Below, piece after piece: positions 1,590 to 17,158 of a stretch of DNA of 64,000 nucleotides. The position numbers were made by a program, and so were the translations under genes. Positions within the stretch are counted from its first letter, which is position 1, and each line of letters starts with the position of its first letter. The stretch is from Bacteroidales bacterium (GTDB taxonomy: Bacteria > Bacteroidota > Bacteroidia > Bacteroidales > Marinilabiliaceae): NCBI GenBank assembly GCA_024401355.1, contig JAKSLF010000008.1, positions 32,389 through 96,388 on the forward strand. The letters run 5' to 3'. The notes below the pieces were generated by a model. That model was not told the origin of the DNA. It did not search any database and worked only from the letters and a program-made list of their open reading frames with translations.

Positions 1590-2543
1590 ATGGAAGCTGT
1601 TTTAATAACGATTGCAGTGTTGGCTTCGCTGGGCTTAACGGCAGCGTTTATACTTTATTTTGTATCGCAGAAATTCAAGGTCTATGAGGACCCAAAGATT
1701 GGCGAGGTAGAAGAAGTGTTGCCGGGTGCCAACTGTGGCGGATGCGGTTTTGCGGGATGCCATGCGATGGCTGAGGCATTGGCCAAGGCGGACGACATCT
1801 CGGGACTAGTATGTCCGGTAGGTGGTTCGGCAGTCATGAGCCAAGTGGCGACAATACTTGGCAAGAGCGTTGCAGAGTCGGCTCCAAAAGTGGCAGTAGT
1901 GCGTTGTGCAGGCTGCACGGTAGGCGAATCGGCAAACCGTCAGAAGACATTGGACTATGACGGAGCGAAATCGTGTGCGATAGCATCGACACATTTTGCA
2001 GGTGACACAGCATGTTCATACGGATGTCTTGGACTTGGAGACTGTGTAAAAGTGTGCCAGTTCAATGCGATCAAGGTGAACGAGGCGACAGGACTAGCAG
2101 AAGTGGACGAAGCGAAATGTGTTGCATGTGGAGCATGTGCGAAGGCATGTCCGAAGCAGATAATCGAGATACGCTACAAGGGCCGAGTAGTAAAAGACGT
2201 AGCACGCCGAGTATGGGTAAGCTGCGTGAACAAGGACAAAGGAGCAGTAGCGATGAAGGCATGCAAGGCATCGTGCATAGGATGCGGCAAGTGTGCGAAA
2301 GTGTGCAAGTTTGAAGCAATCACAGTAGAGAACAATGTTGCTCACATCGACATGGAGAAGTGCAAGGCCTGTGGCTTGTGCATGAACGAGTGTCCAAAGA
2401 ATGCAATAGTAGCGACATTCCCAGCTCCACCAAAGCCAGCTCCTAAACCAGCGGCAGTTGAGGCGACAGGAACAGCCATTCCGAAACCTGCAGAACAACC
2501 GAAGCCAGTAGAGGTACCGGTACAGGCAGACAAACAACAATAA
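1590..2543 (+). CDS. rnfB: Rnf complex electron-transport subunit RnfB
   Basis: RnfB is the ferredoxin-facing, multi-cluster subunit of the Rnf ferredoxin:NAD+ oxidoreductase. The N-terminus is one membrane helix (about 4-26). The RnfB 4Fe-4S domain follows with C49, C52, C57 and C75 (GANCGGCGFAGCHAM). A cysteine-rich middle part (CSYGCLGLGDCVKVC) and further ferredoxin motifs (CVACGACAKACP, CIGCGKCAKVC, CKACGLCMNECP) supply the remaining clusters. The last 45 residues are a Pro/Ala/Lys linker-like tail, probably disordered. Length (317) is longer than the roughly 190-residue proteobacterial RnfB because of the extra clusters, as is usual in Bacteroidota. Confidence 0.96.
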   Translation: MEAVLITIAVLASLGLTAAFILYFVSQKFKVYEDPKIGEVEEVLPGANCGGCGFAGCHAMAEALAKADDISGLVCPVGGSAVMSQVATILGKSVAESAPKVAVVRCAGCTVGESANRQKTLDYDGAKSCAIASTHFAGDTACSYGCLGLGDCVKVCQFNAIKVNEATGLAEVDEAKCVACGACAKACPKQIIEIRYKGRVVKDVARRVWVSCVNKDKGAVAMKACKASCIGCGKCAKVCKFEAITVENNVAHIDMEKCKACGLCMNECPKNAIVATFPAPPKPAPKPAAVEATGTAIPKPAEQPKPVEVPVQADKQQ

Positions 2544-2561
2544 AGATTAATCGAGGAACTT

Positions 2562-3941
2562 ATGTTGAAGACATTTAAAATAGGCGGCATACATCCAGAG
2601 GAGAACAAACTCTCGGCAGGAAGTGCACTCAAGCAGTTCCAATTGCCAGCCGACATCAAGGAAGTCAAGATACCTGTAGCTCAGCATATCGGTGCTCCAG
2701 CCCAGCCAGTTGTCGCAGTAGGTGATGACGTAAAAGTTGGTCAGGTAATAGCTCAGGCAGGAGGATTTGTTTCAGCAAACATACATTCACCATTCTCGGG
2801 CAAGGTTAAGAAAATAGAAGCCACAACAGGCGACGACGGAAAACCAGCCATGATGATAACGATCGCGATTGAGGGCGACGAATGGGTAGAGACAATAGAC
2901 CGTTCGACAGGCATCAAGCGTGAGATTACCCTCTCGGCAGAAGAGATCGTGAAGAAGATTGGCGAGATGGGTATCGTAGGCATGGGTGGTGCACGCTTCC
3001 CTGCACAGGTGAAACTTGCTGTAAAGCCTGGTCAGGCACAGGCGCTCATCATCAATGGTGTGGAATGTGAGCCATACTTGACAGCAGACCACCGACTGAT
3101 GCTCGAGAAGAGTGAGGAAGTGCTTATAGGCATCAAGATACTGATGAAAGCCATTGGCGTAACAGAAGCATACATTGGCATCGAGAACAACAAGAAAGAT
3201 GCGATAGAGTTGTTGACAAAACTGTCGGCAGGATATCCAGGCATCAAAGTACAGCCACTGAAGATGAAATATCCTCAGGGCGGTGAGAAGCAGTTGATAG
3301 ACGCATGTATCGGACGTCAGGTGGCAAGTGGTGCACTACCTATATCAGTTGGTGCAGTAGTGCAGAACGTAGGTACAGCATTTGCAGTATATGAGGCAGT
3401 ACAGAAGAACAAGCCACTGATAGAGCGAGTAGTTTGCGTCACAGGCAAGCCATTGCAGAATCCATCGAACTTCTGGGCAAGAATAGGCACACCAGTCAAG
3501 GCTCTCATCGAAGCGGCCGGCGGAATGCCAGAAGACTGTGCGAAGGTGATTGGTGGTGGTCCGATGATGGGCCGAGCATTTGCGACACTCGACGTACCAA
3601 TTCACAAGGGATCGTCGGGTATATTGCTGATGAACAACCAGGAATCGAAGCGAGGCGAGATAGCGAACTGCATCAGATGTGCTAAGTGCGTGTCGGTATG
3701 TCCGATGGGTCTTGAGCCATTCTTGCTGTCGAAAGTATCGGCAAAGCAGCTTTGGGACATGGCAGAGGAGAATCACATCGCCGACTGTATAGAGTGTGGT
3801 TCATGTAGCTTCACATGTCCATCGAACCGTCCACTCCTCGACTACATCAGAAGAGGCAAGAGCACAGTGATGGGCATCATGAGGGCTCGTGCGGCAGCAG
3901 CCAAAGCAGCGGCAGAAGCAGCAGAAGCAAAGAAAAACTAA
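2562..3941 (+). CDS. rnfC: Rnf complex subunit RnfC
   Basis: RnfC is the peripheral NADH/FMN-binding subunit of Rnf, related to NuoF. The 459 residues show the N-terminal barrel-sandwich region (HPEENKLSAGSA, then IGAPAQPVVAVGDDVKVGQ), the flavin/NADH fold with GMGGARFPAQVKL and INGVECEPYLTADHRLM, a SLBB-like segment and two C-terminal 4Fe-4S motifs (CIRCAKCVSVCP and CIECGSCSFTCP). The end is an Ala/Lys helix (RARAAAAKAAAEAAEAKKN). It begins 18 bases after rnfB, and the order rnfB-C-D-G-E-A is the typical one. Confidence 0.97.
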   Translation: MLKTFKIGGIHPEENKLSAGSALKQFQLPADIKEVKIPVAQHIGAPAQPVVAVGDDVKVGQVIAQAGGFVSANIHSPFSGKVKKIEATTGDDGKPAMMITIAIEGDEWVETIDRSTGIKREITLSAEEIVKKIGEMGIVGMGGARFPAQVKLAVKPGQAQALIINGVECEPYLTADHRLMLEKSEEVLIGIKILMKAIGVTEAYIGIENNKKDAIELLTKLSAGYPGIKVQPLKMKYPQGGEKQLIDACIGRQVASGALPISVGAVVQNVGTAFAVYEAVQKNKPLIERVVCVTGKPLQNPSNFWARIGTPVKALIEAAGGMPEDCAKVIGGGPMMGRAFATLDVPIHKGSSGILLMNNQESKRGEIANCIRCAKCVSVCPMGLEPFLLSKVSAKQLWDMAEENHIADCIECGSCSFTCPSNRPLLDYIRRGKSTVMGIMRARAAAAKAAAEAAEAKKN

Positions 3942-3962
3942 AACAGAAAACAGATAATCACA

Positions 3963-4922
3963 ATGAATAATTTAACCATAGCACCATCACCACATGTGCA
4001 TAGCAGCGACTCAGTGAAGCGCAACATGTATTTGGTTGTCGCAGCTCTGCTTCCGGCCCTGATTGCATCGGTGTATTATTTTGGATTGGGCGCCCTATCG
4101 GTAGTTGTAACATCGATAGTATCGTGCGTACTGATAGAGTTTCTCATACAGAAATTTGTCCTAAAAGTGCCAACGACCATAACAGATGGTTCGGCAGCAG
4201 TAACAGGTCTCATCTTATCGTTCAACCTGCCAGCAGGACTTCCATTGTGGATAGTAGTTGTTGGTGCGCTAGTAGCGATAGGCATAGGCAAGATGACCTT
4301 TGGTGGTCTTGGCCAGAACATAGCGAACCCAGCAATATTGGGACGAGTATTCCTGCTTGTCTCATTCCCAGCACAGATGACCACATGGCCAGTGCCACAA
4401 GGAGCTGACGGTGCGACAGGTGCGACACCACTCGGACTGTTGAAAGAAGGTGGTGTAGGTGCACTTGCAAACATACCGACATCGGACCTTTTGTTTGGAA
4501 ACATTGGCGGTTCGCTTGGTGAGATTTCGGCGCTTCTGCTTATCATTGGTGGAATAATCCTGCTGGTGACAAGAGTGATTACATGGCACATACCAGTGAG
4601 CATACTTGCGACAGTAGCGATCTTTGCTGGCTTGATGTGGGGCGTTGACCCAACGCAGTATGCAGATCCATTGTTTCACATATTGACAGGTGGTATGCTT
4701 CTGGGTGCAATATTCATGGCAACCGACTACGTAACATCACCAATGTCGCATTCGGGCATGATAGTATATGGTGTAGGCATTGGCCTTATAACAATGCTCA
4801 TCCGTACATTCGGAGCATATCCGGAAGGAATGTCATTCGCTATTCTGATAATGAATATCGTGACACCACTTATCAACACCTATTGCAAACCTAAACGATT
4901 CGGGGAGGTAGTAAAGAAATGA
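3963..4922 (+). CDS. rnfD: Rnf complex membrane subunit RnfD
   Basis: RnfD is an integral membrane flavoprotein of the Rnf complex. The 319-residue protein has about nine hydrophobic segments after a soluble N-terminus of 25 residues. The stretch GADGATGATPLGLLKE contains the (S/T)GAT-type site where the family carries covalent FMN through a phosphoester-threonyl bond. The stop codon overlaps the rnfG start (ATGA), which suggests translational coupling. Confidence 0.96.
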   Translation: MNNLTIAPSPHVHSSDSVKRNMYLVVAALLPALIASVYYFGLGALSVVVTSIVSCVLIEFLIQKFVLKVPTTITDGSAAVTGLILSFNLPAGLPLWIVVVGALVAIGIGKMTFGGLGQNIANPAILGRVFLLVSFPAQMTTWPVPQGADGATGATPLGLLKEGGVGALANIPTSDLLFGNIGGSLGEISALLLIIGGIILLVTRVITWHIPVSILATVAIFAGLMWGVDPTQYADPLFHILTGGMLLGAIFMATDYVTSPMSHSGMIVYGVGIGLITMLIRTFGAYPEGMSFAILIMNIVTPLINTYCKPKRFGEVVKK

Positions 4923-5650
4923 AAAAGCTAGAATCAACATTGCCAAACATGCTGGCAGTCCTAACATGCATCTGCATCATAGCAGCAGCACTCCTCGGCA
5001 TGATGAACGAGGTCACTAAAGACCCTATCGCCCAGATAGAGCAGAAGAACCTCGAAGAAGGCATCAAGAAAGTGATATTGGGAGCCAATGCGAGTGGCGA
5101 CCTCACGGTGAGCAAGATAGACACCATCGTCGAAGACAAGCAGGTATATATAGTATATACTGCAGAGCAGAACGGCAAGGAACTTGGCAAGGCAGTAAAA
5201 ACTGCAGTACAGGGATTCTCGCCAGACTTGACAGTGCTTACAGGCTTTGATGCCGAAGGCAACGTGATGGGCTATGAGATATTGAAGCATGGTGAAACTC
5301 CAGGACTTGGTGCACAGGCTCCAGAGTGGTTCAAGGACAAGGAGAACAATCCGAAGAGCTACATCATCGGAATGAATCCTGGCAAGAACAAGATGACAGT
5401 GAGCAAAGACGGCGGTGAGATAGACGCCATCACAGCATCAACAATCACCAGCCGTGCATTCTTGAAAGCTATCAACATGGAATATAACACCCTCTTCAAG
5501 GGCAACGCCGAGACAGGTGCGACAAAAAAAGCCGAGCCAGCATCATGCGACTCGACAGCAGTTGCGACAAACGACTCGACAGCCGTAGCAGAAAAAGAAG
5601 CTCAGCAAGGCGGTGCATTAACTATCAAGGTAGTTGAAGTAGAAGAATAA
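4919..5650 (+). CDS. rnfG: Rnf complex flavoprotein subunit RnfG
   Basis: RnfG is a membrane-anchored subunit with an FMN-binding domain. One N-terminal helix (about 9-27) anchors a soluble domain; the flavinylation region reads GGEIDAITASTITSRAF, so the usual SGAT-like motif appears as TAST, with the acceptor threonine kept. GAQAPEWFKDK and the GETPGLGAQ segment are other family landmarks. The last 45 residues form a low-complexity tail rich in Ser/Thr/Ala (CDSTAVATNDSTAVAEKE) not needed for the fold. The start overlaps rnfD by four bases. Confidence 0.94.
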   Translation: MKKLESTLPNMLAVLTCICIIAAALLGMMNEVTKDPIAQIEQKNLEEGIKKVILGANASGDLTVSKIDTIVEDKQVYIVYTAEQNGKELGKAVKTAVQGFSPDLTVLTGFDAEGNVMGYEILKHGETPGLGAQAPEWFKDKENNPKSYIIGMNPGKNKMTVSKDGGEIDAITASTITSRAFLKAINMEYNTLFKGNAETGATKKAEPASCDSTAVATNDSTAVAEKEAQQGGALTIKVVEVEE

Positions 5651-5682
5651 AAGGGTTACTCAACCAAAAAAAGAACTAGAAA

Positions 5683-6264
5683 ATGAATAAGTTTAAGATA
5701 ATACTCAACGGACTTGTCAAGGAGAACCCTACATTTGTACTTCTCCTCGGTATGTGTCCGACACTTGGTACGACAACGTCGGCCATCAATGGTATGGGTA
5801 TGGGACTTGCGACGACATTCGTACTCATCTGTTCGAACGTCGTATTGTCATCAATAAAGAAGATAGTGCCAGACATGGTGCGCATACCATCGTTCATCGT
5901 GGTTATCGCAACATTCGTGACAGTGCTCCAGATGCTGATGCAGGCATATATGCCATCGCTTTATGCATCGCTCGGTCTCTTCATTCCACTGATTGTTGTG
6001 AACTGTATCGTGCTTGGCCGTGCAGAGGCATTCGCAGTAAAGAACACACCATTCGACTCTATGCTTGACGGCATTGGCATGGGTTTGGGCTTCACCATAG
6101 CGCTCACATTGCTTGGTGCCTGCCGTGAGTTGCTCGGTTCGGGCAACATCTTTGGTATCGACCTGTGGAGCAAGGAGTATGGAGCACTGGCATTCGTGCT
6201 TGCACCAGGAGCCTTCATAGTATTGGGCTACCTCATCGCCATCGTCAACAAACTCCGTAATTAA
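5683..6264 (+). CDS. rnfE: Rnf complex membrane subunit RnfE
   Basis: RnfE (RsxE) is one of two homologous six-helix membrane subunits of the Rnf complex. The family landmarks NPTFVLLLGMCPTLGTTTSA, VLSSIKKIVPDMVRIPSFIV and CIVLGRAEAFAVKN are all present. Length (193) is close to the family norm. It follows rnfG after 32 bases and precedes rnfA by 22. Confidence 0.96.
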   Translation: MNKFKIILNGLVKENPTFVLLLGMCPTLGTTTSAINGMGMGLATTFVLICSNVVLSSIKKIVPDMVRIPSFIVVIATFVTVLQMLMQAYMPSLYASLGLFIPLIVVNCIVLGRAEAFAVKNTPFDSMLDGIGMGLGFTIALTLLGACRELLGSGNIFGIDLWSKEYGALAFVLAPGAFIVLGYLIAIVNKLRN

Positions 6265-6286
6265 TTAAACTCAAAAGAAAAGAATT

Positions 6287-6880
6287 ATGGAATATATACT
6301 TATAGTCATATCGGCAATCTTCGTCAACAACGTTGTATTGTCGCAGTTCCTCGGCATTTGCCCTTTCCTTGGAGTTTCAAAGAAGGTGAGCACAGCCGCA
6401 GGCATGGGTGCAGCAGTAACATTCGTGCTGACACTTGCCACAATCGTGACATACCTAGTACAGAAGTGCATACTTGAACCATTCGACCTCAAGTATCTGC
6501 AGACAATAGCATTCATCCTCATCATCGCAGCCCTTGTGCAGATGGTAGAGATCATACTCAAGAAAGTGTCGCCATCGCTCTATCAGGCACTTGGTGTATT
6601 CTTGCCACTTATCACAACAAACTGCTGTATCCTTGGTGTAGCAATAATGGTAGGTGACGGAACATACAACGCGATGGGTCTTGAGCCAACATTGTTGAGT
6701 GGTGTAGTTTATGCAATAGCAACAGCCATAGGCTTTGCACTTGCCCTCATCCTCTTCGCAGGTGTACGCGAGCATCTCGAACTCATGGATATTCCAGAGG
6801 GAATGAAAGGCATGCCAATAGCACTCATCGTGGCAGGCATCATGGCCTTGGCATTCATCGGATTCTCGGGTCTGGTATAA
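6287..6880 (+). CDS. rnfA: Rnf complex membrane subunit RnfA
   Basis: RnfA (RsxA) is the partner of RnfE in the membrane core of the complex. It shows VNNVVLSQFLGICPFLGVSK near the N-terminus, where the paired cysteines of RnfA/RnfE are thought to hold an intramembrane iron-sulfur centre, and LPLITTNCCILGVAI in the middle. Six hydrophobic helices span the 197 residues. It is the last gene of the operon; a strong terminator starts 26 bases downstream. Confidence 0.96.
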   Translation: MEYILIVISAIFVNNVVLSQFLGICPFLGVSKKVSTAAGMGAAVTFVLTLATIVTYLVQKCILEPFDLKYLQTIAFILIIAALVQMVEIILKKVSPSLYQALGVFLPLITTNCCILGVAIMVGDGTYNAMGLEPTLLSGVVYAIATAIGFALALILFAGVREHLELMDIPEGMKGMPIALIVAGIMALAFIGFSGLV

Positions 6881-6905
6881 AACGACAAAAGAATAAGAAG
6901 AAAAA

Positions 6906-6936
6906 AGAGGCGTTGCGATGTGACGTCTCTTTTTTT
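6906..6936 (+). terminator. Rho-independent terminator of the rnf operon
   Basis: AGAGGCGT (6906-6913) pairs with ACGTCTCT (6923-6930) with one G-U pair and is followed by a run of seven T. It separates the rnf genes from the downstream DUF6057 operon. Confidence 0.9.
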
Positions 6937-6939
6937 GTA

Positions 6940-6947
6940 TATATTTG
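6940..6947 (+). promoter_or_regulatory. -7 promoter element of the DUF6057 operon
   Basis: TATATTTG matches TAnnTTTG directly behind the rnf terminator. It overlaps the TTG at 6945 that would be the most upstream start, so translation must begin further down, at ATG 6981. Confidence 0.7.
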
Positions 6948-6980
6948 CGCTACGGAATCTTACCTCTGAATATAAAACTG

Positions 6981-8795
6981 ATGAATAACCTTTTTCACAA
7001 AATCACAACAGCCATATTTGCAATCATTGTATTCGCATTCTGGCTGGTTGGTCACCCTGAGGCATTGTCATTTCAAGAGCAATACCAGATGTTTCTGCTC
7101 ACGAAAGGATATTTCGCTGAAAGGATGGCTGTAGCCGGCGGACTAGCAGACTACGTGGCCGAATTCCTGACCCAGATGTACTACTTTCCTGCATTGGGTG
7201 CGGGCATACTGGCAATTGTTATCACACTGATACAAATAAGCACATGGACATTAGCCAAGAGAACTGGTGGTAAGGGAATGCCTGACACGCACTATGCGTT
7301 GAGCTTCATCCCGGCAATAATGACATTGTGCCTGATGGGTGACGAAAACATGATGCTGGAATTTGCGGTAGCAACACTGATGGTCTTAGGTGCGACGATA
7401 GGTTATACATACGTCAGGGAATATCAATGGGCAGTACATCTAGCAGCAATACCACTACTCTACTGGCTTGCCGGACCTATAGTAATTATATATATTATAG
7501 CGACAGCCATTTATGACATTAGGATGCGTGGGACAGGCAAAGCCGTTGTTGGAGGGATAGCATTGGGCATTGTCATTTGGATAGCAACAATGACAATAGC
7601 AGCCATGACATGGCTCGTGCAGTACACACCGACCGACATAGCCTTTGGAATAAACTACAACCGTCTGAGACAAGTGGTTCCACCAATGATGATAGCAACT
7701 GAAGCTGCGACAGCACTTATACCACTTGTGATAGCACTGATGCCACAGATGAAGTCGACGGTGGTACTAACAGTAGAATGGGTAATAATAGCCATAGCAG
7801 GAATAGCCGGAGTGGAAGCAAGCTATGACAAAGCAAAATATAGCACCATAGAATACGATTACCTCGTAAGAAGCGAGAGGTGGGATGCGATAATAGAGAA
7901 AGCCAAGAAAGACAGACCACAAAACGACATGGATCGCGTCTGCATAAACCTTGCGCTTGAGATGAGAGGAGAATTGCTGGAGAGAATGTTTGAATTCAAC
8001 CAGAATGGAGCGAAAGGATTGCTTGCGCCAGCAAAACGAGACCAGTTGACATGCCTTTCGACAGCTGAAGTATTCTACAGACTTGGCATGGTCAACGAAG
8101 CACAGAAATATTTCTTTGACATACAGGAATCGATAATAAATTGCCGCAAAAGCAGCCGATGCACAAAGAGGATCATAGAGACAATGATCGTGAACGGTCG
8201 CTACGAAGTGGCAAGGAAATACATCGACAGATTGAAGAACACCATGTTCTATGCAGGATGGGCAAAGAATGCGGAGAAATATCTATACAACGAAGAGGCA
8301 GTCAACACACATCCGATATGGGGACGCATGAGGCAGCTGAGATACAAAAACGACTTCTTGGGGAACTACTACGAAATGGACAAGATGCTGGGAATGCTAT
8401 ACCTAACCAACACAACTAACAGGATGGCCTTTGAATATTTCGTTGCACAAAACCTACTGCTGAGAAACATGAAAGGCGTATACAGCGCCATACCATGGTT
8501 CATAGAACAAAAATACGCGCAGACGCCACGTCACATAGAAGAAGCCATAAGCATGATATGGTCGCAAGGTCACTCAAGTTTTGACGGAATGCCTATAGAG
8601 GTGAGCCAACAGACAAAGAACGACCTGATGAGATTTGCCAAGATATACTCGACAAATCCGAAGGACAGACAACTGGAACAGGATAATTGGAAGAAGACAT
8701 ATTGGCACTACTGCCTAATTGAAAAGCCACGTGAGAATGTGGACGGCAAGAGTGGTGCAACAAGCCTAAACAGCGACGAAGAACAAAAAAGGTAA
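6981..8795 (+). CDS. DUF6057-family membrane protein, copy 1
   Basis: This 604-residue protein resembles DUF6057 proteins of Bacteroidota, whose function is not established. After a short N-terminus it has about eight or nine hydrophobic segments (residues 7-290), with the family-like region EALSFQEQYQMF and a stretch around GLADYVAEFLTQMYYFPALG. The C-terminal half is soluble and helical (YDYLVRSERWDAII, then INLALEMRGELLERMFEF and FYRLGMVNEAQKYFFDI), which looks like TPR-type repeats. I chose ATG 6981 because the longer TTG start overlaps the promoter. It is the first gene of a five-gene operon and has a paralogue of the same length at 10873. Confidence 0.8.
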   Translation: MNNLFHKITTAIFAIIVFAFWLVGHPEALSFQEQYQMFLLTKGYFAERMAVAGGLADYVAEFLTQMYYFPALGAGILAIVITLIQISTWTLAKRTGGKGMPDTHYALSFIPAIMTLCLMGDENMMLEFAVATLMVLGATIGYTYVREYQWAVHLAAIPLLYWLAGPIVIIYIIATAIYDIRMRGTGKAVVGGIALGIVIWIATMTIAAMTWLVQYTPTDIAFGINYNRLRQVVPPMMIATEAATALIPLVIALMPQMKSTVVLTVEWVIIAIAGIAGVEASYDKAKYSTIEYDYLVRSERWDAIIEKAKKDRPQNDMDRVCINLALEMRGELLERMFEFNQNGAKGLLAPAKRDQLTCLSTAEVFYRLGMVNEAQKYFFDIQESIINCRKSSRCTKRIIETMIVNGRYEVARKYIDRLKNTMFYAGWAKNAEKYLYNEEAVNTHPIWGRMRQLRYKNDFLGNYYEMDKMLGMLYLTNTTNRMAFEYFVAQNLLLRNMKGVYSAIPWFIEQKYAQTPRHIEEAISMIWSQGHSSFDGMPIEVSQQTKNDLMRFAKIYSTNPKDRQLEQDNWKKTYWHYCLIEKPRENVDGKSGATSLNSDEEQKR

Positions 8796-8810
8796 CAGGA
8801 GGAGAGAAAG

Positions 8811-10268
8811 ATGAATTACATAAAATATATAGCCATAATGGCAATAGCTACTGCCTGTACCGAACATCCGGAAAATGCAATGAAGCTGACAAGTGAGCCA
8901 CCAATATATCCAGACTATAAAGGCGTAACAATACCAGCAGGCATAGCACCAATGAACTTCAACATAGACGGAGCGGAAATAGTTGACGTCAGTGTAAAGG
9001 GGAGCATAGTCGGAGAGATGCATGCGAATGGCGAATGGGCCGACTTTGACATAGAAGAATGGCATAATATAACGGAACAGAACAAAGGTGGTGACCTAGT
9101 ATTCAGAGTATCGGCCAAGAATGACGGGAAGTGGGTTGAATATGCAGACTTCAAGATGCACGTAAGCAACGACCCACTTGACGACTACGGACTGACATAC
9201 AGGAAACTGGCTCCAGGATATGAAGTATTCAGCGACATAGGCAACTACCAGCGTGACATACACACATTTGACGAAGAAGCCATACTGGCAAGCACAGCAG
9301 TGCCAGGACAATGCATGTCGTGTCATACTGCGAATCGGACAAATCCTCGCCAACTGACAGTACACCTGAGAGGCAAACATGCAGCCACACTGGTTCAGAT
9401 AGACGGGAAACGCACATGGCTGACGACCAAGACGGACTCGACAATATGCAACTGCATGTATCCGTATTGGCATCCATCGGGCAACTATTGCGCCTACTCG
9501 CTCAACAAAGTGCACCAGAGCTTCTATGTCGGGAACAAACGTTTTATAGAAGTATTTGACGATGCCTCAGACGCGACAATACTCGACGTCAGGACCAACG
9601 AACTTATACTCTCGCCACTGCTGCAGACCAAAGACTGCGAAACATATCCGACATTCTCGGCAGACGGCAAGACAATATACTACTGCACATCCAAGGCACA
9701 CAGAGTGCCAGCCGAATGTGAAAAGATGCGCTACGACCTATGCACTATAGACTTCGATGCAGAAAGCGGACGCGTAGGCAACACAGTGGATACGATACTA
9801 AAAGTGTCGGATAAAGGGCACAGCATAACCTTTCCTCGTCCGTCATACGATGGCAAATACTTGATGTACTGCTTATCAGACTTCGGCTATTTTCCGATAG
9901 ACCATAAGGAGAGTGACCTATGGCTGATGGACCTTAGAAGTGGCGAGACAAGAGCTATAGATGAAGTGAACAGTGAAGACACCGAGAGCTTCCACAATTG
10001 GAGTTCGAACTCTCACTGGTTTGTCTTCAGTAGCCGACGCGAAGACGGACAATATAGTCTGCTCTACATCGCCAACATCGACAGCGAAGGTAACATAGGC
10101 AAGCCATTTGTCATGCCACAGCGTAACCCAAGAGAATATTACCGAGCATCACTCCACTCATATAACGTACCTGACTTCACGCTGACAAAAGTTGAACTCG
10201 ACGCAAGAGCGGCATACGAGGAAGTGTTCTCGGATGAAAGAATACAAGTAGGAATAAAGAAACAATAA
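8811..10268 (+). CDS. TolB-like beta-propeller lipoprotein with CxxCH motif, copy 1
   Basis: This 485-residue protein starts with a lipoprotein-like signal (IAIMAIATAC), so it probably sits in the periplasm or outer membrane. Residues 30-130 form an N-terminal beta domain (IYPDYKGVTIPAGIAPMNF). A CxxCH motif (GQCMSCHTANRT, about 165-176) follows, the signature of covalent heme c attachment. The rest has WD40-like PD40/TolB repeats: YPYWHPSGNYCAYS, YPTFSADGKTIYYC, FPRPSYDGKYLMYC and HNWSSNSHWFVFSSRREDG. Function is unknown; some database entries for such proteins mention cytochrome c, but I have no proof that heme binds. It begins 15 bases after the DUF6057 gene. Confidence 0.8.
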   Translation: MNYIKYIAIMAIATACTEHPENAMKLTSEPPIYPDYKGVTIPAGIAPMNFNIDGAEIVDVSVKGSIVGEMHANGEWADFDIEEWHNITEQNKGGDLVFRVSAKNDGKWVEYADFKMHVSNDPLDDYGLTYRKLAPGYEVFSDIGNYQRDIHTFDEEAILASTAVPGQCMSCHTANRTNPRQLTVHLRGKHAATLVQIDGKRTWLTTKTDSTICNCMYPYWHPSGNYCAYSLNKVHQSFYVGNKRFIEVFDDASDATILDVRTNELILSPLLQTKDCETYPTFSADGKTIYYCTSKAHRVPAECEKMRYDLCTIDFDAESGRVGNTVDTILKVSDKGHSITFPRPSYDGKYLMYCLSDFGYFPIDHKESDLWLMDLRSGETRAIDEVNSEDTESFHNWSSNSHWFVFSSRREDGQYSLLYIANIDSEGNIGKPFVMPQRNPREYYRASLHSYNVPDFTLTKVELDARAAYEEVFSDERIQVGIKKQ

Positions 10269-10281
10269 GAAAACAGACAAC

Positions 10282-10863
10282 ATGAACATCATAAGCAAAA
10301 CATTAGCAGCCATAGCATGCATCGCGGCTCTCACAGCATGCACCAAGAACCAAGAATGCAGAATACACGGCACAGTGCCGTCAGACCAATATGATGACAA
10401 ATACATATTTCTGGTCCCTATCTATAAACCAGATAGTGTTGGCGTTGATTCGGTCAAAATAAAAGGCAGAACATTCGAATTTGTAACCGAGAAGAACATC
10501 GTGGCAGACATACGCCTTGGGTACAGATACAGATTTGGCACACAGAATCTGCTGATTGTAACCGAACCAGGCGACGTATATGCCGAAATAGATTCAATAA
10601 GCAAAGGATGGGGCACGCCACAGAACGACTATCTACAGGAGTGGAAAGAGAACACCGAATCAAAGACAAAAGCAATCAGAGCCTTGACAAAAGCAATCAA
10701 CGCAGCCAAGGCCGCTGATGACAACCAGTCGGTTGACGAATTGAGGCACCAGGTACAGGAGATACAGGGCAGTTACATGGAAAAAACAATGAAACTGAAA
10801 GAGACACTCAAAGAGGGACCACTATTCGATTTTCTCGACAAGATATATCCATCAAAGCAATAG
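10282..10863 (+). CDS. DUF4369-like lipoprotein
   Basis: This 193-residue protein has a lipoprotein signal (AACIAALTAC), then a beta-rich domain that resembles the DUF4369 domain found in front of TlpA-type thioredoxins in Bacteroidota: CRIHGTVPSDQYDDKYIFLV, DSVKIKGRTFEF, LLIVTEPGDVYAEIDS and the GT-N-Y element GWGTPQNDYLQEW. The C-terminal third is a charged helix, and there is no thioredoxin domain or CxxC pair. It sits between the two DUF6057/propeller pairs, 13 bases after the first propeller and 9 before the second DUF6057 gene, so it probably acts with them in the envelope. Confidence 0.75.
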   Translation: MNIISKTLAAIACIAALTACTKNQECRIHGTVPSDQYDDKYIFLVPIYKPDSVGVDSVKIKGRTFEFVTEKNIVADIRLGYRYRFGTQNLLIVTEPGDVYAEIDSISKGWGTPQNDYLQEWKENTESKTKAIRALTKAINAAKAADDNQSVDELRHQVQEIQGSYMEKTMKLKETLKEGPLFDFLDKIYPSKQ

Positions 10864-10872
10864 GACAAAGCA

Positions 10873-12687
10873 ATGAAAAACATTGTAGGCAAATATTGGC
10901 AAAGTCTGTTGACACTGACATTTGGAATAGGAGTATTCATATTCTGGTATATCCTTTATCCGTATGCTCTCTCATTCCAGGAGGAACTGCAGTTGTTCAT
11001 CTATGACAGCCAGTATCTGATAGAAAGACTGGGCTATTCGGGAGGCGTATCGGTATACATAGCCGAGTTCCTAACCCAGTTCTACACATCACTTACGGCA
11101 GGCGCCATAATACTGGCAGTCATATTTGTCATACTGCAACAACTGACATGGAAAGTTGCGAAAAATGAGGGGGCAGACGACAGGCACTACCCTCTCTCGT
11201 TTGTGCCTGCAGTATTCTTGCTATACAGCATGGGTGACGAGAATATACTGCTGGGGTTGGTTGTTGCTACAATAATTGCATTGTCAGTCAACCTGCTATA
11301 CACAAAGATAGAAACAAATAGATGGAAGATTGCGGCTATTGCCATTGGTCTGCCTATTCTTTTTTGGATAGCAAGTTCGGCCGCATACATAACAGTTGGA
11401 TATATAATAATTAGGGAGATAAGAAAGAATGGAATCAACAAGGAGAGCATATTACTCAGCATAGGCTTGATAATCTACATGATAGCGATTATCATTGTGT
11501 GCTATAGAATGTCTCCATACCAGTTCTACAGAGTGGCGTCCGGCATCAACTTCTACAGATACAGACATATCGTAAGCAAAGCAGAGATTGCCATACTGCT
11601 AATATTTACAATTACTCCAGCAATAGCAGGCTTCATTACAAAATGGCAAAATGAGAAGTGCGTCTCTGCAAGCAAGAACAATAGCAAGACGAAAGGGAAC
11701 AATTGGATAACTCGCACAGAAACATTGGAAGCCATAGCCATAGCGCTATGCTGCATATTCGTCGTCAGAACTGGATATGACGAGAGGAAGTATGACATCA
11801 TGGAATACGACATGCTGCTGCGAAGACATTCATGGGATAAAATAATAGAGAAAGCAGAAAAGAAGCAGGCTACATCTCCAACAGAAGTAAGCACAATAAA
11901 TTTTGCACTGGCCATGGAAGGCCGCCTGACAGACAGGATGTTTGAATTCTACCAGAAGAACTCTGAAGGTCTCATGCCGCTATACAAGCGAGAACTGACA
12001 TCGACACTAATGGCCAACGAGATATACTTCCGCATAGGAATGATAAATACGGCACAACGATTTGCATTTGAGTCACTAGAGTCAATCCCCAACCACCAGA
12101 AAAGCGGAAGAATCATGAGGCGACTTGTAGAAACCAACATGATCAATGGTCAGTATGAGGTGGCAGAAAAATACATCAAAATATTGAAAAAAACATTTGC
12201 ATATCGCAGATGGGCTAACGAGATGGAAGGATATCTCTATAACGACGAAAAAATAGACAAGCATCCGTTCTATGGCGAAATGAGACGATTCAGAGTGACA
12301 GAGGACTTCCTCTATAGCGACAACGAAATGGACCAAATGCTGGGACTGCTATTTATGCATAACAACGACAACAGAATGGCTCTTGAATATCTGCTGGCAT
12401 GTGAACTTCTAACAAAAGATATTGGTCACTTCATGGAGTACTACCCTCTCACCAGCAATCTGAAAGGATATCCTACTGTTCCTCCTAGGTCATTCCAGGA
12501 AGCCATGATATATGCATGGATTAACCAAGGAAAGAAAATACAGGATTGTCCGTGGCCTGTCAGTGACTTTGTCAAACAGAACATGGCTAAGTTTGGCCAG
12601 ATATACATGGCTGACAAAAACAGCCAACAGTTACAGGAAGGATATTTTGCAACCTCATACTGGAACTACCTATTTTTTGAAAGATGA
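10873..12687 (+). CDS. DUF6057-family membrane protein, copy 2
   Basis: This paralogue of the gene at 6981 has the same length (604 residues) and layout: membrane helices in the first 300 residues, beginning with LTFGIGVFIFWYILY and YALSFQEELQLFIYD, then a soluble helical half with YDMLLRRHSWDKIIEKAEK, INFALAMEGRLTDRMFEF and EIYFRIGMINTAQRFAF. The matching phrases (YLNNEEA/YLYNDEK, HPIWGRM/HPFYGEM, MDKMLGML/MDQMLGLL) show common descent but clear divergence, so the duplication is old. It ends in a 4-base overlap (ATGA) with the second propeller gene. Confidence 0.8.
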   Translation: MKNIVGKYWQSLLTLTFGIGVFIFWYILYPYALSFQEELQLFIYDSQYLIERLGYSGGVSVYIAEFLTQFYTSLTAGAIILAVIFVILQQLTWKVAKNEGADDRHYPLSFVPAVFLLYSMGDENILLGLVVATIIALSVNLLYTKIETNRWKIAAIAIGLPILFWIASSAAYITVGYIIIREIRKNGINKESILLSIGLIIYMIAIIIVCYRMSPYQFYRVASGINFYRYRHIVSKAEIAILLIFTITPAIAGFITKWQNEKCVSASKNNSKTKGNNWITRTETLEAIAIALCCIFVVRTGYDERKYDIMEYDMLLRRHSWDKIIEKAEKKQATSPTEVSTINFALAMEGRLTDRMFEFYQKNSEGLMPLYKRELTSTLMANEIYFRIGMINTAQRFAFESLESIPNHQKSGRIMRRLVETNMINGQYEVAEKYIKILKKTFAYRRWANEMEGYLYNDEKIDKHPFYGEMRRFRVTEDFLYSDNEMDQMLGLLFMHNNDNRMALEYLLACELLTKDIGHFMEYYPLTSNLKGYPTVPPRSFQEAMIYAWINQGKKIQDCPWPVSDFVKQNMAKFGQIYMADKNSQQLQEGYFATSYWNYLFFER

Positions 12688-14183
12688 TGACAAGAAAACA
12701 TAGCAATATAGGCATCGCAATGTGCGCAGCCGCACTGATGATGACAATGACAATGTGTAGCGAGACTCCACAGAACATAAAGGACGTCAATGCCGAGGCA
12801 AAGATATATCCCGACTACGCAGGAGTCACAATACCATCCAACATAGCACCACTGAACTTCTGTATCGACAACGATAGTGTGACATGCCTAGACGTCACAA
12901 TAAAAGGCTCAAAAGGTGGGGAAATCGAGTCGAACGGCCAGTATACAGACTTTGACGTTGATGAATGGCACAAGCTATGCGAGGCCAACAAAGGAGACAG
13001 TCTGACTGTCAGCGTAATAGCCAAGAAGAATGACATCTGGACAAAGTACAAGGATTTCAGCATATACATAAGCGATGACACGATGGAAGCTTATGGACTA
13101 ACATACCGACGTATAGCTCCAGGCTATGAAGTATACGGTCACATGGGAATATACCAGCGTAACTTGTCCAACTTTGAAGAAGAGTCAATAATGGACAATA
13201 ACGAAGTGTATGGAGCATGCTTCAACTGCCATACAGGCAACAAGACTAGCAACCAAGACTATCTGTTCCATGTCCGTGGCGACAACGCAGCTACTATAGT
13301 GAACCACAATGGGAAGACCGACATACTGAATACAAAGACCGACAAGACTATCGGTTCACTTGTCTACCCGTACTGGCATCCTGATGGACGTTATGTTGCA
13401 TTCTCATCAAACACAACAAGACAGTCATTTCACATGACGAGAGACACTAGAATCGAAGTGTTTGACAACGAGTCTGACATCATGGTATATGACACAGAAA
13501 AACAAGAAATACTCTTCACTCCACTGACTAACAATACCGATTCGACTCTAGAGACCTTTCCTGCCTTTTCGGCCGACGGCAAAGATATATTCTTCTGCGC
13601 AGCATCGAGCAATTACAACCCGGCTTCGATGAAGGATCTGTGGTACGACTTGTGCAAGATTAGCTTCGATGCGGAAAAGAGAAGTTTCGGAAGCAAAGTA
13701 GATACCGTGATAAAAATGTCTACACATGGGAAGAGCATATCTCACCCACGTCCATCGTATGACGGACGCTACCTAATGTTCACAGTAAGCGATTTCGGAA
13801 CATTCCCTATATGGCATAAAGAGGCCGACTTATGGATGCTAGACCTTCAGACTGGCAAATACTGGCCAATGGACAATGCGAACAGCGACAATACTGACAG
13901 TTACCACAACTGGAGCATCGATTCGCACTGGTTTGTCTTCACAAGCCGCAGAGACGATGGATTATACACACGCCTATACATAGCGCATGTTGACAAAAAT
14001 GGCAAATCTAGCAAGCCATTCCTGCTGCCACAAAGAAATCCGAAAAGATATTATGACGCACTGCTAGACTCATATAATACTCCGGACTTCCTCATCGCAA
14101 AGATAAGCCAGAATCAGAAAGCCTTGGCTAGCAAACTGCTGTCACCGGAAAGGACGAACATTGAGGCTGTCAATGTAGAGTAG
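12684..14183 (+). CDS. TolB-like beta-propeller lipoprotein with CxxCH motif, copy 2
   Basis: This is the 499-residue paralogue of the gene at 8811. It has a hydrophobic signal ending at a likely lipid-modified cysteine (MMTMTMCSETP), the N-terminal beta domain (IYPDYAGVTIPSNIAPLNF), a conserved CxxCH motif (GACFNCHTGNKT) and the same propeller blades (YPYWHPDGRYVAFS, FPAFSADGKDIFFC, HPRPSYDGRYLMFT, HNWSIDSHWFVFTSRRDDG). Conservation of CxxCH and the following H-x-RG-x-x-AAT stretch in both copies suggests the motif is functional. It is the last gene of the operon and runs towards a convergent DUF554 gene 16 bases away. Confidence 0.8.
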   Translation: MMTRKHSNIGIAMCAAALMMTMTMCSETPQNIKDVNAEAKIYPDYAGVTIPSNIAPLNFCIDNDSVTCLDVTIKGSKGGEIESNGQYTDFDVDEWHKLCEANKGDSLTVSVIAKKNDIWTKYKDFSIYISDDTMEAYGLTYRRIAPGYEVYGHMGIYQRNLSNFEEESIMDNNEVYGACFNCHTGNKTSNQDYLFHVRGDNAATIVNHNGKTDILNTKTDKTIGSLVYPYWHPDGRYVAFSSNTTRQSFHMTRDTRIEVFDNESDIMVYDTEKQEILFTPLTNNTDSTLETFPAFSADGKDIFFCAASSNYNPASMKDLWYDLCKISFDAEKRSFGSKVDTVIKMSTHGKSISHPRPSYDGRYLMFTVSDFGTFPIWHKEADLWMLDLQTGKYWPMDNANSDNTDSYHNWSIDSHWFVFTSRRDDGLYTRLYIAHVDKNGKSSKPFLLPQRNPKRYYDALLDSYNTPDFLIAKISQNQKALASKLLSPERTNIEAVNVE

Positions 14184-14199
14184 GCAAATCTTGCCTATG

Positions 14200-14922
14200 T
14201 CAAGAGAAGAGAGCCTTGATAGAGAACCAGATTACAGGGACAAGAAGTGACGGCAGAAGATTAACCGTCTTGCAGTCCTTGATGGAAAGTATGGACAGCC
14301 CAGAACTGACAATGAGTACACCTCCGACAATGCTCAATTCTACACGCATCGGCTCTGGCATAGCCTCTCCAAAGAAATAAGCGATGTAATAGAACATAGC
14401 CTGCCAGCAGAATAATGCTGGAGCCGCGAGAAGCATTATCCATCCATACGAAGCAGAAAGAACGGCTGAAGTCACCAAATCCAATGTAGCATTGGTATAT
14501 AGATACGTATTTCCGGGTTCACTCAGCGCCCACCCTTGGCTTGGAGACAGACACGACAATACAGGTCCGACAATGCTGAAGGTGCCTATTGTGTACAGCA
14601 ATATACCCGTCACCAGTCCGTTTATGCTGTTGTTTTCCTTACCTGACTTGGCATTAAGTCTTGCATTCAAGCGGTCAATGCGACCGGAAAGATCGAGTTT
14701 CGTGCCCACAACACCTCCTATGGCTAGACTAAGGATAAACAGCACCGGATATTCACTCTTTGCCATGTTGGGCAATGCCGCATTGACTCCCAGTACAAGA
14801 CATGCCAGTCCGAGAGCATTAAAAAGAGCCGACTTGTACTTATCACCTATACCCTCACGGACAATGGCGCCAAAGGCTCCTCCAACAAGTATTGTACATG
14901 TATTTACTATCGTCCCTAACAT
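14200..14922 (-). CDS. DUF554 family membrane protein
   Basis: The 240 residues match the DUF554 (YdfK-like) family of small integral membrane proteins of unknown function. Seven or so hydrophobic segments are visible. Family landmarks include the N-terminal LGTIVNTCTILVGGAFGAIV, a GVVGTKLDL element and the IGTFSIVGPVLS segment. The gene lies 15 bases downstream of the serine hydrolase on the same strand and may share its transcript. Confidence 0.88.
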   Translation of the reverse strand: MLGTIVNTCTILVGGAFGAIVREGIGDKYKSALFNALGLACLVLGVNAALPNMAKSEYPVLFILSLAIGGVVGTKLDLSGRIDRLNARLNAKSGKENNSINGLVTGILLYTIGTFSIVGPVLSCLSPSQGWALSEPGNTYLYTNATLDLVTSAVLSASYGWIMLLAAPALFCWQAMFYYIAYFFGEAMPEPMRVELSIVGGVLIVSSGLSILSIKDCKTVNLLPSLLVPVIWFSIKALFS

Positions 14923-14937
14923 AATACGATCATTTTT

Positions 14938-16041
14938 TTAGAGGGCTGGCAAGAGATATTGCCAGATAATCTCCATATATGGCTGATAAAGCGATGATGA
15001 CGTGGTAAGAACCAATACAGCATCTTTCTTTGGGAATACCATAATATACTGTCCGGCGTAGCCATCGGCACGGAATCCCTCACCATTGCGAGTGACCCAC
15101 ATCTGATAGCCATAGCCTTGAGCCCATTCGTTGTTATCCTTGTTGATGCCAACCTTCTCAAGATCCTCGAAACGAGTGCCAGACGGAGCTGAAGGCACCT
15201 GATATTTTGACATTTCTTCAAGCCACTGCGATGAGACTAACTGATGGTCGTTCCACTTTCCATGCTGAATAAAGAGTTGACCCATCTTGGCCATATCTTC
15301 TGTTGTCAGGTGCAGACCCCAACCGCCACAGCAGATGCCCTGAGGACTTTCGTCCCATTCTGGTCGTGCAATATGAAGTGGCTGGAAGAGACGGGTATCG
15401 AGATAGTCAATAAGTTTTTCTCCAGTAGCTTTCTGAATGATAGCAGAAAGCATATATGTGCCAAAAGAATTGTAGAGGAAATAATCACCCGGTTTATGTT
15501 CAACTGGCCATGCGAGGAAACTCTTCACCCAATTGACATCAGGAGAATCGACATTATCAGGGTCTAGGAAGCGAGATATCTGTGGTTCGGTGTCATGTCC
15601 ACAGGTCATCGTCAGCAGGTCGCGAACAGTCATGGCAGCAAGATTGTCGCTTACTGTTTCAGGAAGCAAATCAGGGAAGAACGAGACAACCTTATCATCG
15701 AGTTTGAGCTTGTTTTCATCGATAGCCATACCTATGGCTGTGGCAGTAAAGGTCTTGCTGACCGAATACATTAGATGTGGAGTCTGAGGGGTATGCCCAT
15801 TATACCAACGCTCAAGAAGTACCTGACCGTGCTTGATTACCATAATGCTATGAAGAGAAATGGAGTCAGGGGCTACTGGCTGCGTTTGTGTAGCGTGGTA
15901 GAACGAATCTACTGCGGCCTCCAGCGAAGGAACCGATTCGCCACGAGGAAGGCTTATAATATCGTCACTCTGTGTCTGTGGTTTGTTGCAACCGACTATC
16001 ATCAATGTTGTCAGGAATGCATAAGAGAATATTTTCTTCAT
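14938..16041 (-). CDS. serine hydrolase, beta-lactamase class C/PBP4* family lipoprotein
   Basis: A 367-residue periplasmic lipoprotein: starting at ATG 16041 gives MKKIFSYAFLTTLMIVGC with a proper lipobox, whereas the upstream in-frame ATG at 16074 would add residues in front of the signal. The class C beta-lactamase fold is shown by the catalytic S-x-x-K (MYSVSKTFTATAIG), the Y-x-N motif (LYNSFGTYML) and a late GYAGQYIMVFP segment in place of KTG. Proteins of this group act as esterases or D-aminopeptidases rather than antibiotic-degrading enzymes in most cases; the substrate here is unknown. Confidence 0.87.
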   Translation of the reverse strand: MKKIFSYAFLTTLMIVGCNKPQTQSDDIISLPRGESVPSLEAAVDSFYHATQTQPVAPDSISLHSIMVIKHGQVLLERWYNGHTPQTPHLMYSVSKTFTATAIGMAIDENKLKLDDKVVSFFPDLLPETVSDNLAAMTVRDLLTMTCGHDTEPQISRFLDPDNVDSPDVNWVKSFLAWPVEHKPGDYFLYNSFGTYMLSAIIQKATGEKLIDYLDTRLFQPLHIARPEWDESPQGICCGGWGLHLTTEDMAKMGQLFIQHGKWNDHQLVSSQWLEEMSKYQVPSAPSGTRFEDLEKVGINKDNNEWAQGYGYQMWVTRNGEGFRADGYAGQYIMVFPKKDAVLVLTTSSSLYQPYMEIIWQYLLPAL

Positions 16042-16065
16042 AGTAAAAATGGTTATTAGATATGA

Positions 16066-16098
16066 GATAAGCATTGCTCAAATATGGCAATGCTTATC
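16066..16098 (-). terminator. strong hairpin downstream of asnA
   Basis: GATAAGCATTGC (16066-16077) pairs perfectly with GCAATGCTTATC (16087-16098) around a 9-base loop. There is no T run, so it may be a weak terminator, an RNA-stabilising 3' end or an operator for the serine hydrolase gene that follows. Confidence 0.55.
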
Positions 16099-16120
16099 CA
16101 GATATTCAAGTATTCAAATG

Positions 16121-17158
16121 TTAGATCAATGGAATGTTGTTCTCCGAACAAGTCTTGCGCATGTCGTCTGGCCAGATGCTAGCCTGAATTTCACCGATAT
16201 GAGCCTTGCGGAGGTAGAACATGCAGAGACGGCTTTGACCAATGCCACCACCTATTGAGAGAGGCAGAGAACCTTCGAGAAGGCGCTTGTGGAAATAGAG
16301 TTCCTTGCGCTGTTCCTGTCCCTTAATCTTGAGCTGACGTTCGAGCGAATCTTTGTCTACGCGTATACCCATAGAACTGATTTCGAATGAACGCTCGAGC
16401 ACAGGATTCCAAATGAGGATATCACCATTGAGTCCCTTGAAGCCATCAGAGTTTTCTGTAGACCAGTCATCATAGTCTGGAGCACGGCCGTCATGAGGTT
16501 CGCCATTGCTCAACTCGCCACCTATTCCCATGATAAAGACTGCACCATAAGCCTTAGCAGCCTTGTCTTCACGCTCTTTTGGAGTGAGATTTGGATATAG
16601 ACGGAGAAGTTCTTCAGCATGTACGAAATGAATATCGTCTGGCAACTGAGGAACCAACTGTGGATAACGCTCGAAAACCACATATTCTGTGCGCTTGATA
16701 GCACCATAGATACGGCGAACCACCTGCTTTAGGAAATCAATGCTACGCTGCTCCTTGCTAATTGTCATTTCCCAGTCCCACTGGTCAACATAAAGAGAAT
16801 GTATATTGTCGAGTTCCTCATCAGAACGGATTGCGTTCATATCTGTATAGATGCCGTATCCCTCTTCGATAGAATAGTCGGCAAGAATCATACGCTTCCA
16901 CTTTGCAAGAGAATGAACAACCTCAGCCTTCTGGTCGGCCAAATCCTTAATAGGGAAGGTAACAGGACGTTCTACACCATTAAGGTCGTCATTGAGGCCA
17001 GTACCCTTCATAACAAAGAGCGGTGCAGTCACACGGCGAAGGCGGAGTTCAGCTGCAAGATTGTGCTGAAAGAAATCTTTGATAAACTGAATGCCGAGCT
17101 CAGTCTGGCGCAAATCGAGTGCTGGTTTATAGCCCTTGGGTATGAATAACTTTCCCAT
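16121..17158 (-). CDS. asnA: aspartate--ammonia ligase (asparagine synthetase A)
   Basis: AsnA makes asparagine from aspartate, ammonia and ATP in the cytoplasm. The 345 residues cover the full family with LRRVTAPLFVMKGTGLNDDL near the N-terminus, the VERPVTFPI segment, the YVDQWDWEMTI stretch, DDWSTENSDGFKGLNGD, the ISSMGIRVD block and the class-II-synthetase-like end GGGIGQSRLCMF. Length is about 15 residues more than the E. coli enzyme. It has its own promoter at 17246-17253. Confidence 0.96.
   Translation of the reverse strand: MGKLFIPKGYKPALDLRQTELGIQFIKDFFQHNLAAELRLRRVTAPLFVMKGTGLNDDLNGVERPVTFPIKDLADQKAEVVHSLAKWKRMILADYSIEEGYGIYTDMNAIRSDEELDNIHSLYVDQWDWEMTISKEQRSIDFLKQVVRRIYGAIKRTEYVVFERYPQLVPQLPDDIHFVHAEELLRLYPNLTPKEREDKAAKAYGAVFIMGIGGELSNGEPHDGRAPDYDDWSTENSDGFKGLNGDILIWNPVLERSFEISSMGIRVDKDSLERQLKIKGQEQRKELYFHKRLLEGSLPLSIGGGIGQSRLCMFYLRKAHIGEIQASIWPDDMRKTCSENNIPLI

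Follow-up and report, generated by a model that had tools for sequence, protein, structure and literature searches.

Several described systems share individual features with the locus analysed here, which was found in a 64,000-nucleotide stretch of a Bacteroidales contig (the window). Pfam family DUF6057 (PF19529) has an entry that gives no function, and neither name was mentioned in the literature searches, in agreement with the sequence-only reading of this DNA, which had regarded the family as being without known function; the present analysis adds a regular propeller partner of this family. TolB of the Tol-Pal system is an exported propeller of the PD40 type, and hydrazine synthase as well as MauG-like di-heme proteins combine a propeller with CxxCH motifs and c-type heme. 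In the type IX secretion system (T9SS), PorE unites TPR, propeller and OmpA parts in one chain. Finally, SusCD-type loci are a frequent setting of the genes in question, which in many relatives follow SusC and SusD in the same orientation. Our tentative reading, to which we give slightly less than an even chance, is that a heme-c propeller is docked on a membrane-bound TPR protein, that this module is present in two copies and that it often accompanies SusCD loci.

The locus comprises five genes, all on the plus strand, in the order DUF6057, CxxCH propeller lipoprotein, DUF4369-like lipoprotein, DUF6057 and CxxCH propeller lipoprotein (the quintet). The first DUF6057 protein (6981-8795; 604 amino acids; PF19529 E 4e-153) is followed by a propeller lipoprotein of 485 amino acids (8811-10268; PD40 PF07676 E 8e-10), by the DUF4369-like lipoprotein of 193 amino acids between both pairs (10282-10863), by the second DUF6057 protein (10873-12687; PF19529 E 4e-166), which is likewise 604 amino acids long, and by a second propeller lipoprotein of 499 amino acids (12684-14183; PD40 PF07676 E 4e-9). 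The intergenic gaps amount to 15, 13, 9 and -4 bases, the last being an ATGA overlap of the second DUF6057 gene with its propeller gene. Hence, the earlier description of five tight genes with this order, these gaps, this overlap and two DUF6057 proteins of equal length is confirmed; judged from gene spacing, the quintet is probably cotranscribed. The middle gene scores 22.4 bits against PF14289 (DUF4369), and since this falls under the gathering cut-off of 25, the label "DUF4369-like" is a fair one. Upstream, a terminator-like hairpin with a 17-pair stem and a subsequent T run (6900-6936, plus strand) is located 3' of the rnf operon, followed by TATATTTGC (6940-6948, plus strand), which was detected in a pattern scan for TAnnTTTGY, presumably the -7 promoter element of Bacteroidetes/Bacteroidales. 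As this pattern is common in the window (50 occurrences observed versus 25.6 expected), a promoter at TATATTTGC upstream of the quintet is plausible; of the promoter after an rnf terminator that had been proposed for the quintet, the terminator-like hairpin is present and the promoter keeps this lower grade. A phage or defence origin was rejected, as scans with PHROGs and PADLOC gave no match at E 0.001, and mobile-element insertion was rejected, as flanking repeats of at least 20 bases were not found.

Pairing of DUF6057 with a propeller was assessed in two sets of loci. The named loci were picked by propeller and are the 80 best-ranked of 546 confirmed places; in them, a propeller gene is the next gene after 176 of the 178 assessable DUF6057 genes (3 more lie at contig ends). 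The second set was sampled from 48 of the 51 other DUF6057-positive genomes of the order (G630, G634, which is barely over the cut-off, and G681 being left out) and from two genomes of a draw across the phylum; 80 regions were sampled, one of which is L057, so 79 sampled loci are counted. Here, with 2 DUF6057 genes at contig ends left out (5 in both sets together), a same-strand propeller gene adjoins 76 of 84 assessable DUF6057 genes, 69 times downstream and 7 times upstream; the other 8 have no neighbouring propeller gene on the same strand, although a divergent one adjoins the DUF6057 gene of L190. Same-strand double pairs are rare in this set (3/79). In the named loci, a DUF4369-like gene fills the slot between two pairs in 48 of the best 80 of 546 loci. 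When these 48 related quintets were placed in trees together with the window quintet, the proteins of position 1 and position 2 formed two clades with none misplaced, for 98 propellers as well as for 91 DUF6057 proteins (7 under the length limit were left out), with support values of 0.99 and 0.98. Judged by these clean clades, the two versions of the pair are real and old, which bears out what had been claimed about them. Gut and rumen Bacteroidales hold an undescribed envelope protein pair with two old versions in one cluster. Tree distances of DUF6057 and propeller partners correlate with 0.92 and 0.94, those of the DUF4369-like protein follow the pairs with r 0.85-0.90, and correlations with SusD reach only 0.15-0.38. 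The DUF6057 protein of position 1 correlates with propeller 2 (0.92) as strongly as with propeller 1. Correlated trees are also produced by shared inheritance.

With 511.7 and 554.7 bits against PF19529 (gathering cut-off 29.8), both DUF6057 copies are full-length members of the family, and they share 36% identity with each other. In the genus of the window, a single genome can have as many as 9-10 matches to DUF6057, fragments being counted apart. From the phylum draw, only G078 and G039 were kept as DUF6057 genomes; weak PF19529 matches were dropped, six of ten inspected loci being FtsW-like and one GT-C-like by eye. According to an estimate from hydropathy and charge, DUF6057 would be an inner-membrane protein with about nine transmembrane helices and a cytoplasmic N-terminus, followed by a TPR-like solenoid of about 310 amino acids at the C-terminus in the periplasm. 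TPR-type Pfam matches are weak (TPR_12 in 7 of 65 DUF6057 members, best E 0.005), and Glu33 and Gln36 are invariant in the first outside loop. GT-C glycosyltransferases resemble this in topology, in loop residues and in a periplasmic C-terminal repeat domain. DUF6057 could thus be a GT-C type enzyme with periplasmic TPRs and the propeller its substrate or partner, and the GT-C-like weak match mentioned above (L026, E 4e-4) would fit as well. We consider this quite unlikely, as equally weak matches are FtsW-like, no GT-C family is among the listed Pfam matches of the 65 members at E 0.1, and a PDB profile search gave weak matches alone, the best being CbiQ (E 0.004). Alignments with hhalign against six GT-C sets yielded at most 1.0% probability with shallow target alignments, and the FtsW (0.3%) and CcsBA (0.1%) controls were at similarly meaningless levels; GT-C membership therefore finds no support, though the targets were shallow.

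The two propellers share 48% identity and carry the heme-attachment-type motifs CMSCH (residues 168-172; 9312-9326, plus strand) and CFNCH (13218-13232, plus strand), which were assigned from sequence and conservation. Among 266 propeller homologues of at least 430 amino acids, CxxCH is present in 265, its histidine in all 266, and exactly one such motif in 264. The alignment column of lipobox Cys16 is 98% cysteine in these homologues and a lipobox-like pattern is found in 209 of 266, gene starts being uncertain; by this conservation, the propeller is evidently an exported lipoprotein. It resembles TolB in being an exported PD40-type propeller with weak profile similarity, but scores of 23.9 and 23.5 bits are far below the TIGR02800 cut-off of 343, and lipobox, CxxCH and a DUF6057 partner set it apart. 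Likewise, no match to the hydrazine synthase NCBIfam models was obtained, and the single CxxCH together with a lipobox differs from the di-heme proteins. PorE and PorW are reminiscent of the quintet through a TPR-type part and a propeller lipoprotein in the Bacteroidota envelope, and the quintet might be imagined as their counterpart, an accessory of secretion or of outer-membrane assembly, the more so as Por_Secre_tail occurs in 4 of 76 neighbours and a GldM-like protein in one. Yet the quintet encodes separate chains, a membrane-embedded repeat protein and a CxxCH motif, with no OmpA match by Pfam, which leaves this idea very improbable.

In our preferred reading, the propeller would be a TolB-type PD40 lipoprotein with one covalent c-type heme, and the TPR domain may dock it, as adjacency and parallel evolution suggest. 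No second universal histidine or methionine was found in the propeller alignment, so the heme would more likely be five-coordinate or Tyr-ligated, which would suit ligand sensing or small-molecule redox chemistry more than a plain electron carrier. The missing universal distal ligand equally suits the same architecture without heme, in which CxxCH would be a metal (e.g. zinc) site or a structural disulphide and the module a periplasmic scaffold or ligand sensor for SusCD operons. So does the natural variant L219, in which both CxxCH cysteines are lost and the histidine is kept, and so does G615, a genome of 99% completeness with an intact CxxCH propeller and no match to PF01578 (cytochrome c assembly) or ResB; the ResB test is insensitive, because its model missed a Bacteroides control that PF01578 detects. 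Against a heme-free module speak the presence of CxxCH in 265 of 266 exported propellers and the recurrence of di-heme proteins and CcsBA via a chorismatase-like gene, and we regard it as the less probable case, albeit one of some weight.

Cytochrome c assembly genes (PF01578) occur in 48 of 52 DUF6057 genomes versus 268 of 341 others (p 0.02), a weak enrichment which is not significant among near-complete genomes (40/43 vs 229/282, p 0.08); CcsBA is present in the window genome. The chorismatase-like family PF21168, of RidA fold, was found in 23 of 52 DUF6057 genomes versus 11 of 341 others (p 4e-15, uncorrected for phylogeny). Its gene sometimes adjoins DUF6057, such cases stemming mainly from loci chosen for DUF6057; the window genome also has a chorismatase-like gene (L265, 7894-9063). 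In 20 of the 25 PF21168 loci away from DUF6057, of which six had already been seen near PF01578 beforehand, a CxxCH protein lies within three genes in 10, an assembly gene in 4 and either of them in 12; for control genes, a CxxCH neighbour was counted in 94 of 655. Hydrazine synthase-type and MauG-like di-heme CxxCH propellers both occur beside the chorismatase-like gene.

The neighbouring rnfBCDGEA operon (1590-6880, plus strand, named from sequence) is judged to be outside the module. The sequence-only reading had considered a redox link to Rnf, and the quintet might indeed be a redox partner of this complex, given the direct adjacency in the window, three other congeners in which a DUF6057 gene and rnf are no more than 20 kb apart, and L184, the one locus among the 79 sampled that has rnf upstream, at a distance of about 5 kb. 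However, DUF6057 directly follows rnfA in none of 13 assessable congeners (the region of L287 ran into a contig end), and rnf was not found within up to 9 kb on either side of the 80 named loci. In G689 and G695, other genes separate DUF6057 from rnf, in the former an asnA-like gene with the DUF6057 pair convergent to rnf, and rnf-type matches in L208 were read as Nqr, because a neighbour was read as NqrF. Moreover, each of the 15 genomes of the genus that were searched has rnfA, even the two without a DUF6057 match. An Rnf partnership is hence very unlikely, and the position beside rnf looks like a local accident. From the envelope machine that had been proposed, a membrane protein with TPR-like repeats and a redox-motif lipoprotein in two versions are retained, and the Rnf link falls away. 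Another DUF6057-propeller pair of the window genome lies between sufD and sufS. This arrangement is found in 0 of 13 congeners: sufS directly follows sufD in 12 of the 13 other congeners with a sufD match, and the thirteenth (L311) has an unlabelled gene after sufD which is not DUF6057. Coupling to suf was rejected, as the suf-embedded pair is confined to the window genome.

SusC and SusD were located within six genes upstream in 31 of the 48 related quintets among the best 80 of 546 loci, 8 of the 48 having less than 4.5 kb upstream to inspect; no such pair was seen in the remaining 17, and SusC and SusD are absent from the window. The labels denote similarity to the window genome's own copies. 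In the sampled loci, SusC-type and SusD-type neighbours occur in 24 of 79 each, and L036, another pair of the window genome, belongs to a same-strand cluster with both. The module may often serve SusCD-type loci: in about two thirds of related quintets it follows genes for SusC, SusD and, in most cases, a surface lipoprotein, and it may be an accessory that handles or senses SusCD imports or periplasmic redox conditions during import. The more specific proposal that the docked heme-c propeller performs periplasmic redox chemistry on a SusCD-imported or chorismate-derived compound appears unlikely. Differences from known parts of polysaccharide utilization loci are that none of the quintet genes is a recognised CAZyme, transporter or regulator by Pfam, that the tree of SusD shows little agreement with those of the quintet, and that the window copy lacks SusCD. 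Should the more specific proposal be true, a c-type cytochrome module would be tied to glycan uptake in gut Bacteroidales, a link for which the literature searches gave no report. With the heme confirmed, polysaccharide utilization loci would gain a c-type cytochrome among their parts. An envelope module without function in the literature searched has many members where rumen and gut bacteria encode their nutrient uptake. SusC/SusD, glycoside hydrolases and the chorismatase-like protein recur among its neighbours. The glycoside hydrolases present among the neighbours, of which a Pfam tally covered 145 of 153 with the 25 commonest families listed, include GH2, GH10, GH28, GH43, GH115 and GH5. 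Two pairs (L070 and L121) stand behind a GH10 xylanase gene, and the closest tree relative of the suf-embedded propeller is likewise located behind such a gene on the same strand.

The five genes at window positions 6981-14183, 3' of the rnfBCDGEA operon, were confirmed as the sequence-only reading had described them, with gaps of 15, 13, 9 and -4 bases. In a Pfam scan, the two large membrane proteins match DUF6057 (PF19529) over its full length; each lipoprotein has PD40 repeats and a single CxxCH, and the middle gene is DUF4369-like with a score under the cut-off. Between rnf and this quintet lie a hairpin that resembles a terminator (6900-6936) and, at 6940-6948, a -7-type element. The gene order, pairing, paralogy, motif and context of the quintet are matters of direct observation. 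In the window genome, all six DUF6057 proteins and all six propellers occur in pairs. Likewise, in 79 sampled regions around DUF6057 matches (77 from an order-level draw, two from a phylum draw), a propeller is the next gene on the same strand for 69 of 84 assessable DUF6057 genes, lies upstream for 7 and is missing as a same-strand neighbour for 8. The DUF6057-propeller pair is thus a unit. Above the cut-off, DUF6057 is found in 52/393 genomes of the order and 3/296 of the phylum draw, the own genome being counted in each.

The pair had also been proposed to be kept in two versions, and this holds. Among the best 80 of 546 confirmed places, chosen by propeller similarity and mainly from rumen and gut Prevotella and Bacteroidales (the named loci), 48 show the exact order DUF6057-propeller-DUF4369-DUF6057-propeller. 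Trees built from 98 propellers and from 91 DUF6057 proteins, those of the window among them, place positions 1 and 2 in clean clades without a single misplaced member (support 0.994 and 0.984); the two versions are old. Tree distances are common to the quintet genes (r 0.74 to 0.94), whereas those of the neighbouring SusD agree with them at r of only 0.15 to 0.39. Same-strand double pairs are scarce among the sampled loci (3/79; L151, L153 and L212).

The suggested connection to Rnf, on the other hand, did not hold up. While rnfA was found in all 15 genus genomes searched, it is directly followed by DUF6057 in the window genome only; 13 others have a different gene there, and one has a contig end. 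Congener G686 (rnfA 96% identical) has there a homologue, at 75% identity, of the 14938-16074 gene, which in the window stands past the quintet and is read from the opposite strand. Congener G689 has there a homologue of the window's asnA-like gene (16121-17158), faced by a DUF6057-propeller pair. The region has therefore been rearranged. No rnf genes are labelled in the covered stretches around the 80 named loci (best 80 of 546). Judged from gene order, the Rnf link appears to be local, although DUF6057 lies <20 kb from rnf in three further congeners and sampled locus L184 has rnf ~5 kb upstream. Genes named by eye as DUF554-like, serine-hydrolase-like and asnA-like occupy window positions 14200-17158; the latter two are antiparallel to rnf here and parallel to it in G686 (hydrolase) and G689 (asnA). 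Another pair of the own genome sits between sufD and sufS (L037:6547-9578, contig C31; 3 to 28 bases to its neighbours) and is absent there in the 13 congeners with a sufD match; the nearest tree relative of its propeller is encoded in L070, after a gene for a GH10 xylanase.

In relatives, SusC and SusD both occur within six genes upstream on the same strand in 31/48 quintets (from the best 80 of 546 loci), eight of the 48 having <4.5 kb upstream to inspect. A lipoprotein of ~500 aa, mostly between SusD and the first pair, is present in 49 of these 80 best loci; one member scanned had no Pfam match at E 0.001. A family assigned to GH5 from one scanned member adjoins the cassette in 12 of the same loci, seven with a full quintet, as a plain tally. 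Among sampled loci, SusD-type and SusC-type neighbours each occur in 24/79, and a plain tally of neighbours includes GH2, GH10, GH28, GH43, GH115, esterases and two-component sensor parts. A literature search at the level of listings yielded nothing relevant to propeller cytochromes encoded within utilization loci, and no mention of DUF6057 or PF19529 was found in the literature searched.

CxxCH is kept in 265 of 266 propellers of at least 430 aa and its His in all 266; the sole exception (L219:7656-9167) has lost both Cys. The lipobox Cys16 is 98% conserved and Tyr36, Tyr130 and Tyr217 ~99%; a second universal His or Met is absent from these propellers, His395 reaching 97%. The cytochrome c assembly family PF01578 occurs in 48/52 DUF6057 genomes vs 268/341 others, a weak enrichment (p 0.02; p 0.08 among near-complete genomes) with G615 as a counterexample. 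For DUF6057, hydropathy averaged over 65 members gives eight peaks; nine TM helices are estimated, N-in and with the TPR-like domain outside, the 150-178 stretch being read as two short helices, and this nine-helix reading gives alternating charges. We infer heme, docking, sidedness and a role in uptake for the module. An identity of the propeller with TolB was rejected by NCBIfam scan and a PorE-like quintet on domain layout; DUF6057 is not shown by its sequence to be a GT-C protein. Propeller variants with CGNCH and an N-terminal membrane anchor occur beside a chorismatase-like gene (L253:2167-3915, L262:1315-3042), with no DUF6057 labelled in the covered stretch; judged by eye, the fully read L253 variant ends in a TPR-like tail.

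A recurrent neighbour of the pair is a RidA-fold relative of the FkbO/Hyg5 chorismatases; its BLAST cluster lies within three genes in 13/79 sampled and 10/80 named loci (best 80 of 546). The chorismatase-like family PF21168 occurs in 23/52 DUF6057 genomes vs 11/341 others (p 4e-15 without phylogenetic correction), and in nine of those 23, counted from coordinates, it lies <10 kb from a DUF6057 gene. Arg185, Tyr197, Arg204, Arg367 and Glu373, among others, are invariant in 17 members. The own-genome protein has no PF21168 match and scores only 37 bits against a chorismatase model with a cut-off of 325; the chorismatase activity is therefore putative. Its gene clusters with porin-like (by eye), imelysin, di-heme oxidoreductase (DHOR) and CcsBA genes (L265:7894-16124, contig C69) and adjoins a 1812-aa putative lipoprotein without NCBIfam match (L265:2347-7785). 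Of 20 loci examined in which PF21168 is not near DUF6057, 12 encode a CxxCH protein or have a CcsBA-type gene no more than three genes away, and one such neighbour resembles hydrazine synthase beta-gamma (NF052342, E 6e-31, far under the cut-off). Two Bacteroidales loci (L246:3581-13708, L248:5933-16297) combine such a propeller/di-heme protein, its likeness scanned in L246 only, with a chorismatase-like protein, some loci of this type also having a large CxxCH protein and CcsBA; similar CxxCH proteins of ~590-620 aa occur in L249, L255, L258, L260 and L261.
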